NCBI RefSeq assembly: GCF_008014695.1
Contig: NZ_VOXE01000003.1
Span: 372,001-436,000 of the forward strand
DNA from: Chryseobacterium sp.
GTDB lineage: Bacteria; Bacteroidota; Bacteroidia; Flavobacteriales; Weeksellaceae
Reading direction: 5' to 3'
DNA length: 64,000 nt
Positions 59,007 through 62,179 of this stretch are shown in pieces (within the stretch, counting starts at the first letter, position 1; every line of letters starts with the position of its first letter). The notes under the pieces were generated by a model that saw only the letters and a list, made by a program, of their open reading frames with translations, was not told the DNA's origin and searched no databases. A program made the translations under genes and the position numbers.

Positions 59007-59607
59007 CGCGCTTTTCATAGGACTCTCCGTCTTTTCAACTGCGCAGATTTCGGTGGCCGCAAAGGCAAATTTACTGTTCCCAACCAGTTCTTCTTCATGG
59101 AAAAACATTTCCGCTTCAGCAGTTGAAGCTTATGATAAGGACGGAAAGAATAATGTAGGTTTCAACGCAGGGTTGTCTGTGAAGATGAATATCCTCAGTT
59201 CTCTTTTCATCATGCCCGAAATTTACTACACGACTTTCAAGAATGAATTTACAGATCCGGTGAGTAACACAAAATTCGAAGCAAAAAGCAACAGAGTTGA
59301 TGTTCCGGTATTGGTAGGATACAAAGTGCTTGGCGATAATCTGGGTCTCTTTATCGGCCCGGTTGCCTCTTACAATCTTGCAGGAGATGACCAGTTCAAT
59401 GATTTCAAGGAAAATGCCCTGAAAGAATTTACTGTAGGTTTTCAGTTCGGTGCGCAGCTTCAGATCAAGGATTTTATCGTAAACGGAAGATATGAAGGCG
59501 CGTTCAGCAATGACCAGCGTGATTTCATCAACAAAAACACAAATCAGACGATCCGATACGACAGTCGCCCGAGTTTATTTATTGTTGGAGCTGGATATCA
59601 GTTCTAA
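58990..59607 (+). CDS. Outer-membrane beta-barrel protein (OMP_b-brl, PorT-like fold)
   Basis: 205 residues: a signal peptide (MIKLFSALFIGLSVFSTAQ), then alternating amphipathic strands with aromatic ends (IMPEIYYTTF, LGLFIGPVASYNL, FTVGFQFGAQLQI) and a C-terminal strand ending GAGYQF, typical for an eight-stranded barrel. It begins inside the MlaF gene and so is coupled to the lipid transporter, which suggests, without proof, that it is an outer-membrane partner. Confidence 0.87.
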   Translation: MIKLFSALFIGLSVFSTAQISVAAKANLLFPTSSSSWKNISASAVEAYDKDGKNNVGFNAGLSVKMNILSSLFIMPEIYYTTFKNEFTDPVSNTKFEAKSNRVDVPVLVGYKVLGDNLGLFIGPVASYNLAGDDQFNDFKENALKEFTVGFQFGAQLQIKDFIVNGRYEGAFSNDQRDFINKNTNQTIRYDSRPSLFIVGAGYQF

Positions 59608-59697: not shown

Positions 59698-61383
59698 CTA
59701 TTTTTCAGCGGCAACTTTCGCGCTTCCTAAAATCTTTTCCAGAATTTTAAGGGTGATGAGGTAGGTTGGTTTTACTCCTGTCAGTCCAAGTCCGCCCGAT
59801 GATAGGGTTGAGCCTGTTTCCAGGGGGTTATCAGACGCGTAATACGCATAACACACAAACAGGTCCTGGGAAATATGATGGCGGATTTTAGAAGCCACCT
59901 GAATCGCTTTCTGATAATGAGCGCCTTCCATTTCCAGCCCTATTGCTTTCCATGAGGTATCCATGAAATATTTGAGGATGTCCTTGTTCTGGAGTGAAGT
60001 TCCGAGCACCGTAATCATGGCGCCTTCGTAGGATTTCAGTTCTTCATCTTCAAAATCAGACAGTTTCAGTGCATTTTCAAAGGAGTAATTATCAGCAGTT
60101 CCTTCAAAAATGTGGGAGGTTGGGATCATGATGTCACCTTTTCCGCCTGTTAAAATACCGGCTTTTCCCATAATGGAAACCGATTTCACCTTCATGGTAT
60201 AAATTTCACCGTTGAAATCATACGGTCGCAGCAGTTCATCCATCACTTCATAAGCCTGTTCGCCAAAAGCATAGTCGAAAACCATGATCACATCATCTCC
60301 GGAGTACTTTATACCCGCAAATGGCGTATTTTTCAAATCGGTTTTGGATAAATCGATGATCTGCACATCAATATTGCTGCCGCTTTGGTCGTCAATGTAA
60401 ATCAGACCGGCATTTTGGGAATGTTCGAGTACTTTTTCCTGAAGGGCCTTTTTATTTGAAATATCCTGATACAGTTTGTAATCTACAGTTTTCGTGGTTT
60501 TCTTGCCGAGCGCGTCGTTGGCATACAGCATGTTTTTCACCGAATGCATGTTGGCTGAAATAATATGCAAAGGCCGCATGTGGAGATTGTTCTCTGCAAG
60601 TACCTCTTTTACTTTATTTGCCCATTTTTCTCCGAAAAAGTGATGTCCAACCCTTTCGCGAAGGATGGCGGAGAAATGAACTTCGCGTTCGCGGATCTTT
60701 TTAAAATCGTTAAAACTTTCGTTTCCGAGATAGTAAATAATCTTGAAAAGCCGGTCCGGATTTCCATCGTCACCAAAAGAGTTATATGCATTTAGGGTTT
60801 CATCGAAAGTCCTTCCTAAAAGGGATGAAAGGTGAATCAAGGCTACTTCTTTTTCCTTACGGCTGAACTGTTTTTCCCCTTTTGCCACTTCTTCAATGAT
60901 TTTCCAGGCGCGTGTAGGTCGGTCGTTTTCATCGGTGATGAACGCCAGATTGCGGATTTTGTCAGCTTCAATGTAAAGAAAGGTGAGGTGGGTCAGGATA
61001 TCATAGATTTCCGAACGGCCAAGCAGCACTTCAATGTTCATCTGGTGCTCATCGATTCTGTAGCAGTTTCTCCGTCTTTTTTTCGGCACAATTACTTCAA
61101 AACTTCCTTTTTCGAAACCTTCATCGGATGTGAGATGGATGAAAGAGCATTCTTCAATGCCTTCCGGAAGCCTGTCGAGGACATAAAGGAGCCCGTCCAG
61201 TTCAATTTTATTGGCGACACCCATTGTTCCGTAAATTTCAGGATTAATGGTCGTAAGCAGTGTTCTTAAACTTTCTCCGGAGATACCCGACGGTTTAAAA
61301 AAACCGCGATAGAAGAGATGACGCATGGAAACATACAGCCTTTCGATGGCTTCGGTGGTTTCTCTGGCCCTTGAATTTACCAT
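59698..61383 (-). CDS. DUF6909 family protein with a nucleosidase-like C-terminal half
   Basis: 561 residues, no signal peptide or helices, so cytosolic. The N-terminus MVNSRARETTEAIERLYVSMRHLFYR and overall length match the flavobacterial DUF6909 family, which has no assigned function. By eye the C-terminal half resembles the AMP nucleosidase/nucleoside phosphorylase fold: GKAGILTGGKGDIMIP (406-421), GLEMEGA (482-488, compare the ribose-binding EME motif) and ASDNPLETG (516-524, compare the catalytic SDxP motif). The N-terminal 350 residues match nothing recognised. Nucleotide-cleaving activity is a hypothesis. Confidence 0.75.
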   Translation of the reverse strand: MVNSRARETTEAIERLYVSMRHLFYRGFFKPSGISGESLRTLLTTINPEIYGTMGVANKIELDGLLYVLDRLPEGIEECSFIHLTSDEGFEKGSFEVIVPKKRRRNCYRIDEHQMNIEVLLGRSEIYDILTHLTFLYIEADKIRNLAFITDENDRPTRAWKIIEEVAKGEKQFSRKEKEVALIHLSSLLGRTFDETLNAYNSFGDDGNPDRLFKIIYYLGNESFNDFKKIREREVHFSAILRERVGHHFFGEKWANKVKEVLAENNLHMRPLHIISANMHSVKNMLYANDALGKKTTKTVDYKLYQDISNKKALQEKVLEHSQNAGLIYIDDQSGSNIDVQIIDLSKTDLKNTPFAGIKYSGDDVIMVFDYAFGEQAYEVMDELLRPYDFNGEIYTMKVKSVSIMGKAGILTGGKGDIMIPTSHIFEGTADNYSFENALKLSDFEDEELKSYEGAMITVLGTSLQNKDILKYFMDTSWKAIGLEMEGAHYQKAIQVASKIRHHISQDLFVCYAYYASDNPLETGSTLSSGGLGLTGVKPTYLITLKILEKILGSAKVAAEK

Positions 61384-61386
61384 AGA

Positions 61387-61406
61387 TTATCTTTTGGCAA
61401 AGATAA
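61387..61406. promoter_or_regulatory. Perfect inverted repeat over the DUF6909 promoter
   Basis: TTATCTTT and AAAGATAA are separated by TGGC. The repeat includes the -7 box TATCTTTG (minus strand, 61398-61405) and ends 3 bases before the ATG. Either an operator or a 5' hairpin. Confidence 0.45.
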
Positions 61407-61523
61407 TACATCTGTTTGAAATCTGATTAAACGGTAAATGAAGAAATTGTGTACTTGCAACTTTGTTTTCAATGTAATATAGAAAAAAGCAGTGTTAAAG
61501 ATATATTAAAGTGATTCATACAG

Positions 61524-61555
61524 TTTGTATCTACCATTAAAATTGAGTAAATTTG
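61524..61555 (+). promoter_or_regulatory. Complete -33/-7 promoter of superoxide dismutase
   Basis: TTTG (61524-61527), 20-base spacer, TAAATTTG (61548-61555), 27 bases before the ATG. The best full match to the Bacteroidota housekeeping promoter in this window. Confidence 0.65.
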
Positions 61556-61582
61556 AATCATAACATTTAAAATCAATAAATT

Positions 61583-62179
61583 ATGTCATTTGAATTACCA
61601 CAATTAAACTATGCTTATGACGCATTGGAACCAGCCATTGATGCAAGAACAATGGAAATTCACCATACAAAACACCATCAAGCATATATTGATAACTTAA
61701 ACAAAGCCATTGCAGGGACAGATCTGGAAGGGAAAACCATCGAAGAAATCTGCAAAACGGGAACCGATAAACCGGCAGTCCGCAACAACGGCGGCGGCCA
61801 TTTTAACCACACTCTTTTCTGGGAAATCCTAACTCCTGGCGGAAGCAAAGAACCGGTAGGAAATGTAAAAACTGCTATTGAGGCTTTTGGAGGTTTCGAG
61901 AAATTTAAAACTGATTTTTCTGAAGCGGCTAAAACCAGATTCGGTTCTGGCTGGGCCTGGCTGTGTAAGAAAGACGACGGCTCAGTTTCCGTTTGTTCTA
62001 CTCCGAATCAGGACAATCCATTGATGCCTGTTTCAGAATGCAAAGGAGTTCCTGTATTAGGACTCGATGTTTGGGAACATGCTTATTATTTAAATTACCA
62101 GAATAAAAGACCCGATTATGTTGCTGCATTTTTCGACCTGATCAATTGGGATAAAGTAGAAGAGAAGTTCAATAAATAA
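61583..62179 (+). CDS. Superoxide dismutase (Fe/Mn family)
   Basis: 198 residues. It converts superoxide to O2 and H2O2. Metal ligands H27 ([12 protein letters not shown]), H76 ([11 protein letters not shown]), D162 and H166 ([11 protein letters not shown]). Q143 in TPNQDNPL occupies the position of the second-shell glutamine of Mn-type enzymes, so Mn or cambialistic use is likely. No signal peptide, so cytosolic. Own full promoter; 20-bp symmetric terminator. Confidence 0.96.

Follow-up and report, generated by a model that had tools for sequence, protein, structure and literature searches.

The closest described relatives of the protein considered here are the AMP nucleosidases, which split AMP into adenine and ribose 5-phosphate, and the nucleoside phosphorylases of the same NP-I fold. 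Amn of E. coli and K. pneumoniae (EC 3.2.2.4; PDB 1t8r, 1t8s, 2guw) has a two-domain plan in which an N-terminal regulatory domain, AMNp_N (PF10423), precedes a C-terminal NP-I domain. AMP nucleosidases are hexamers in which the chains share active sites. The cryo-EM paper on Klebsiella Amn (PMC9584410) places R381, W383 and K436 in the active site, has H188 and Y189 extend into the active site of the neighbouring chain, and describes distant AMN homologues as conserving only M404, E405 and D428 of that site. The standard form in Bacteroidota is the AMN-like AMP nucleosidase (NCBIfam TIGR01721; PDB 1ybf, from B. thetaiotaomicron), a shorter NP-I protein of about 256-308 amino acids with no large N-terminal domain. 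The function of TIGR01721 is itself assigned by homology, and in a literature search no paper was apparent in which the activity of a member from Bacteroidota had been measured. DeoD-type purine nucleoside phosphorylases (1xe3) and uridine phosphorylases share this fold along almost their entire length and also lack an N-domain.

The gene under study lies in a window of 64,000 nucleotides, which is the whole stretch of DNA that was analysed. Its open reading frame (59698-61383) is exact, with an ATG start and a translation of 561 residues. The product belongs to Pfam family PF21850, DUF6909 (E 8.9e-61, two matched stretches), for which Pfam gives no function and a literature search found no paper naming either DUF6909 or PF21850. 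An NCBIfam scan of the 561-residue protein returned no match, and a PDB sequence search with the single protein or its profile found nothing related. We consider it probable that DUF6909 is a diverged two-domain nucleosidase replacing the standard AMP nucleosidase TIGR01721, with AMP as its most likely substrate. The basis for this proposal is the predicted fold, the conservation of motifs, the mutual exclusion with TIGR01721 and the fact that no second AMP nucleosidase was recognised in the genome; from these we infer that the protein is catalytic, that it hydrolyses and does not phosphorolyse, that AMP is its substrate and that the N-domain has a role. The features of the gene are as follows.

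59698..61383, minus strand: DUF6909 gene, 561 amino acids plus stop (ORF call, translation, Pfam match)
60646..61383, minus strand: N-terminal domain, residues 1-246, predicted mostly helical with a few strands (AlphaFold2 of residues 1-250)
61051..61083, minus strand: KKRRRNCYRID, residues 101-111; R103, R109 and D111 invariant in 53/53 rows, R105 in 52/53
59701..60645, minus strand: predicted C-terminal NP-I (PNP_UDP_1-like) catalytic domain, residues 247-561 (AlphaFold2 model, Foldseek, VIA)
60631..60648, minus strand: GHHFFG, residues 246-251, start of the NP-I domain; H248 invariant in 53/53
60532..60567, minus strand: first NP-I strand and start of a helix, residues 273-284; H273, S276, N278, H280, S281 and N284 invariant
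60253..60276, minus strand: DYAFGEQA, residues 370-377, every position invariant in 53/53; aligned with NFGMGSP in AMN-like enzymes
60121..60168, minus strand: GKAGILTGGKGDIMIP, residues 406-421; pairs with AMN-like GKCGGL...GDLILP
60085..60105, minus strand: EGTADNY, residues 427-433; aligned with EGTSNDY in AMN-like enzymes
59980..60003, minus strand: GTSLQN[KR]D, residues 461-468, GTSLQN invariant in 53/53; region of AMN R381/W383
59920..59940, minus strand: GLEMEGA, residues 482-488, putative Met-Glu ribose/base site; M485/E486 equivalent to AMN M404/E405
59824..59838, minus strand: ASDNP, residues 516-520; D518 equivalent to AMN D428

By virtue of its predicted structure, the C-terminal part can be assigned to the NP-I enzymes. 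AlphaFold2, given the full protein and 36 aligned relatives, returned a model with pLDDT 89.5 and pTM 0.86. Foldseek matched this model to 334 PDB entries at E<=0.001 (best E 7e-8); within the best 50 of the 334, 49 are named NP-I enzymes and the remaining one, 3la8, carries no name, and among the matches listed are the AMP nucleosidases 2guw (Salmonella) and 1t8s (E. coli). The best VIA match is the DeoD phosphorylase 1xe3 (Z 19.4, 2.7 A, 213 of 234 residues, model residues 252-553), and the alignment with E. coli AMN 1t8r (Z 18.5, 3.7 A, 237 residues, model residues 247-559) is confined to the C-terminal domain. The model is that of a complete NP-I fold in residues ~247-559, in keeping with the nucleoside phosphorylase/AMP nucleosidase fold that the earlier note had suspected, and the motifs of the note are thus no coincidence. 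The same note had set the domain boundary at 340-350. Since the structural alignment covers residues 247-559 of the model, the NP-I domain would begin near residue 250 (247-252), about 100 residues earlier, so that the "N-terminal 350" residues of the note overlap the catalytic domain.

Sequence profiles point the same way. PF01048 of Pfam does not match the window's protein and matches 23 of the 36 family members weakly (best E 0.0015), and no other foreign Pfam family matches more than two of the 36. A profile of the C-terminal domain was searched against the 1275 ORFs of the fetched loci, many of which had been fetched for holding NP-I genes. When the 1148 non-DUF6909 ORFs were ranked, 18 of the best 20 were NP-I enzymes, where 1.1 were expected, and 15 of 20 with the 53-row C-domain profile; these counts are not independent, because the NP-I ORFs are related to each other.

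Conservation was read from alignment A1, which holds 36 of 127 DUF6909 sequences (126 ORFs and the window's own), and from a 53-row alignment in which these 36 rows are joined by 17 of 20 further loci, spanning the window's family and ten other families of genomes. The three motifs of the earlier note are indeed present and in the order of NP-I enzymes and AMP nucleosidases: AGILTGGKGDIMIP (residues 408-421), GLEMEGA (482-488) and ASDNP (516-520). Within them A408, G409, G413, K415, E484, M485, E486, G487, S517, D518 and P520 are identical in 53/53 relatives, and likewise invariant are G406, K407 and the whole D370-A377 block (53/53 rows). K or R directly follows GTSLQN in 52/53 rows. The note had named E485 as the ribose-site glutamate; residue 485 is methionine, and E486 takes that place. 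Together with D518, E486 would lie at the active site, where both sequence alignment and the fold match put it. As the profile alignment pairs it with GKCGG...GDLILP of AMN-like enzymes, the glycine-rich segment reads as the NP-I strand motif rather than as a nucleotide-binding loop of its own. At the start of the domain, GHHFFG with H248 is a possible counterpart of AMN H188/Y189, paired by position and by eye, and N278 is a by-eye candidate for the counterpart of AMN N205.

Comparison with the AMN-like enzymes shows both kinship and divergence. The motifs run in register (DYAFGEQA/NFGMGSP, GKAGIL..GKGDIMIP/GKCGGL..GDLILP, EGTADNY/EGTSNDY, GLEMEGA/AIDMETA and ASDNPL/VSDQPM), and DUF6909 thus shares with TIGR01721 enzymes a collinear set of GKxG...GD...P, EGT...Y, Met-Glu and SDxP. 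The residues M404, E405 and D428, in the Amn numbering of the cryo-EM paper, pair with M485, E486 and D518, all invariant in 53/53. Because of its fold and these three catalytic-site residues, DUF6909 is regarded as an NP-I enzyme. In contrast, R, W and K at the places aligned to AMN R381, W383 and K436 are not conserved in the 53 DUF6909 rows, in a part where the alignment is weak, whereas 23 Bacteroidota AMN-like proteins (alignment A2) keep these three in 23/23 and keep all the other listed AMN active-site residues except H188, which is Arg. With these three residues unmatched, the pockets of DUF6909 for phosphate and base would differ from those of AMN.

Whether DUF6909 stands closer to AMN or to PNP was also asked of the profiles, and the scores fail to discriminate. 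When profiles are compared with each other, the AMN-like family gives a weak match (probability 1.8%, a score reached by 4 of 200 column shuffles) and PNPs a slightly better one, and the best single profile matches are PNP-type; sequence therefore does not single out AMN. The TIGR01721 model (cut-off 307.2 bits) matches neither the window's protein nor any of 36 relatives. By the definitions of the AMN families DUF6909 falls outside them, and it is better described as working like an AMP nucleosidase. Two other variants on the NP-I theme were seen in the genomes. TIGR01721 matches of ~143-162 bits in frames of mostly 393-435 amino acids (family f37 and others) suggest a longer AMN-like variant in other parts of the phylum, with extra sequence outside the matched domain. 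A PNP_UDP_1 match inside a 1036-residue open frame (G088:C1:541550-542275) makes an NP-I domain part of a far longer polypeptide, which may be an effector.

No such relatives emerged for the N-terminal domain. Modelled alone, residues 1-250 give pLDDT 92.6; Foldseek found no PDB match for this model at E<=0.001, which does not show the fold to be new, and the best VIA score is Z 3.6, with no convincing PDB match. An AMNp_N domain (PF10423) was sought and rejected, there being no Pfam match in the window's protein and none among the families listed for the 36 members at E<=10. In this respect the earlier note, which had called the N-terminal part unlike known AMP nucleosidases, is borne out.

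The strongest functional clue is the phyletic pattern. DUF6909 is carried by 72/100 relatives, 43/296 genomes of the phylum sample and 39/396 of the class sample, and strong TIGR01721 matches by 8/100, 120/296 and 280/396, respectively; weak TIGR01721 matches (20-37 bits, in nine phylum-sample genomes, five of which carry DUF6909) were not scored as positive. Co-occurrence of DUF6909 with strong TIGR01721 in one genome was 0/100, 0/296 and 0/396 in these samples and 0/148 in family f22, against 17.4 (phylum), 27.6 (class) and 30.6 (f22) expected under independence, in counts that are confounded by phylogeny and inflated by relatedness and with Fisher tests that ignore phylogeny. Among relatives of at least 2.2 Mb and at least 90% completeness, thresholds chosen post hoc with the lists already seen, exactly one of the two genes is present in 66/66; of the remaining 34, 14 carry one gene and 20 neither.

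Within f22, 73 genomes carry DUF6909, 62 carry TIGR01721 and 13 carry neither; by genus (84 genera) the numbers are 43 and 37, and a single genus holds both states in different species. In this genus (g383), G773 and G870 differ from G839 in which gene they carry, as after a recent switch. Families f19, f22, f65 and f104 each contain both states, and because both states recur within several families, the switch between the two genes seems to be repeated. In a tree of 48 DUF6909 genes (the 53-row set after removal of duplicates), the f104 gene (L201, G436) nests among those of f3, with node support not above 0.9, and the other sampled genus of f104 carries TIGR01721; the position of the f104 gene inside the f3 genes hints at horizontal transfer of DUF6909 into f104. 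DUF6909 was absent from 14 control genomes (0/14) and its relatives were not confirmed in any viral contig, which fits the conservation in one phylum claimed by the earlier note, with other phyla represented by those controls only.

In a control sample of 60 genomes, a strong PNP gene (>150 bits) accompanies DUF6909 in 16/21 known carriers, so DUF6909 does not exclude NP-I genes generally. In the genome of the window itself there are two recognisable NP-I genes, which from their sequences we take to be DeoD-like and uridine-phosphorylase-like; AMNp_N was not found there and TIGR01721 gave no match. Because these NP-I genes are of the two phosphorylase types and AMNp_N and TIGR01721 are absent, DUF6909 is the only AMP nucleosidase candidate found in this genome. 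An apt gene for adenine recycling is present in it; in the sample of 50 genomes scanned for apt, 44 had the gene. In another DUF6909 genome, an apt-like match (G062:C20:18258-18749) is interrupted by six in-frame stops (four TGA, one TAG and one TAA) and is possibly a decayed copy.

The surroundings of the gene add little. An Fe/Mn superoxide dismutase gene (61583-62179) diverges from the DUF6909 gene, and the 199 bp between the two starts (61384-61582) could hold a shared regulatory region. On the other side lies a gene for an outer-membrane beta-barrel protein, convergent with DUF6909 and with its end at 59607. A promoter and terminator scan was not above shuffles, and Rfam and tRNA scans of the whole 64,000-nt window were empty. 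The nearest DUF6909 locus, in a Kaistella MAG, is 98% identical. Across families, gene order around DUF6909 is not conserved (20 loci and the window), and the gene is free-standing, as the earlier note had it. The order M23 peptidase, GH3, DUF6909 recurs in 5/21 loci (L190, L204, L206, L207 and L208), with both genes upstream of DUF6909, and MsrA is upstream of DUF6909 in four f22 loci. In-place replacement was considered and rejected, as the flanks of DUF6909 (20 loci and the window) have almost nothing in common with those of AMN-like genes (8 loci); the exceptions are L217, an AMN-like locus with an MsrA-like gene nearby, and L215, where there were some matches.

Taken with the complementary distribution, which suggests the same role as TIGR01721, AMP hydrolysis is the most economical function because presence of the two genes is either/or. 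Since the TIGR01721 match, AMNp_N and the R381, W383 and K436 residues are all absent, the substrate may be a different one. DUF6909 might then be an NP-I nucleosidase for IMP or GMP, MTA or SAH, another nucleotide or an alarmone-like compound that excludes TIGR01721 by chance or covers AMP in part. The loss of the three AMN residues, the invariant GTSLQN, DYAFGEQA and glycine-rich C-terminal loop peculiar to the family, and the unique N-domain would suit such a substrate, but the near-perfect either/or with TIGR01721 within one family, even one genus, and the coexistence of other purine NP-I genes with DUF6909 make this reading unlikely, if a reasonable one. A more elaborate and rather doubtful version combines a rebuilt phosphate/base pocket with an N-terminal sensor of a kind not described before, and cleavage of AMP or a related nucleotide would then occur only on a signal; the N-domain may in that case be a decayed NP-I protomer lending its basic patch of R103, R105 and R109 to the active site, a built-in pseudo-dimer. 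The only hint for the pseudo-dimer is structural, namely the weak VIA list of the N-domain model, mostly uridine phosphorylases (first half) or AMN at Z 2.0-3.6. The sequence tests do not support a decayed copy: 0/20 top N-profile matches are NP-I enzymes and 37/100 shuffles reach the N-versus-C score.

Other readings keep the fold and change the chemistry. The DeoD-type fold match is at least as good as that of AMN (Z 19.4 vs 18.5, tied within about 1) and the best single profile matches are PNP-type, as might be expected of a phosphorolytic enzyme; what DUF6909 excludes, however, is a nucleosidase and not PNP genes, and a phosphorylase is very unlikely. Several AMN residues are missing and no activity is known, which would suit an NP-I scaffold that has lost catalysis and serves in structure or regulation, yet M485, E486, S517 and D518 are invariant in 53/53, and such a scaffold is extremely improbable. 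NP-I effectors that destroy nucleotides as a defence against phages exist, and an NP-I fold with an extra domain resembles them. We give hardly any credence to such a role for DUF6909, as the PADLOC scan gave 0 families at E<=1, the gene is present in 72/100 relatives and was not confirmed in viral contigs, and no defence genes recur among the neighbours examined.

On the preferred reading, an AMP nucleosidase in function, DUF6909 would be a soluble two-domain protein. A purine nucleotide would be bound in its C-terminal NP-I domain, where M485 and E486 would contact base and ribose and D518 would lie near the base. The N-glycosidic bond would be hydrolysed, converting AMP to adenine and ribose 5-phosphate, and the adenine would be recycled by APRT. 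The family-specific N-domain probably either controls the activity or contributes the missing part of the active site. Some of the Bacteroidota would use DUF6909 instead of TIGR01721, the short AMP nucleosidase that is standard in the phylum. The earlier note had expected new biochemistry from a nucleotide-cleaving enzyme of this kind. The cleavage is retained in our proposal, and the novelty becomes less likely, as mutual exclusion with TIGR01721 points to the known AMP reaction; given the differences in the pocket the substrate may still be another one, and the N-domain may bring a new kind of regulation.

For the biology of these bacteria, the proposal provides a testable function for DUF6909, a core gene across Chryseobacterium and Kaistella relatives and present in several other Bacteroidota families. 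It would explain the apparent absence of an AMP nucleosidase from DUF6909 genomes. It would also offer a clean case of a central purine enzyme repeatedly displaced, even among the species of one genus, by a remote homologue that carries a new domain. If the enzyme is regulated, the N-domain would represent a new way of controlling adenylate levels.
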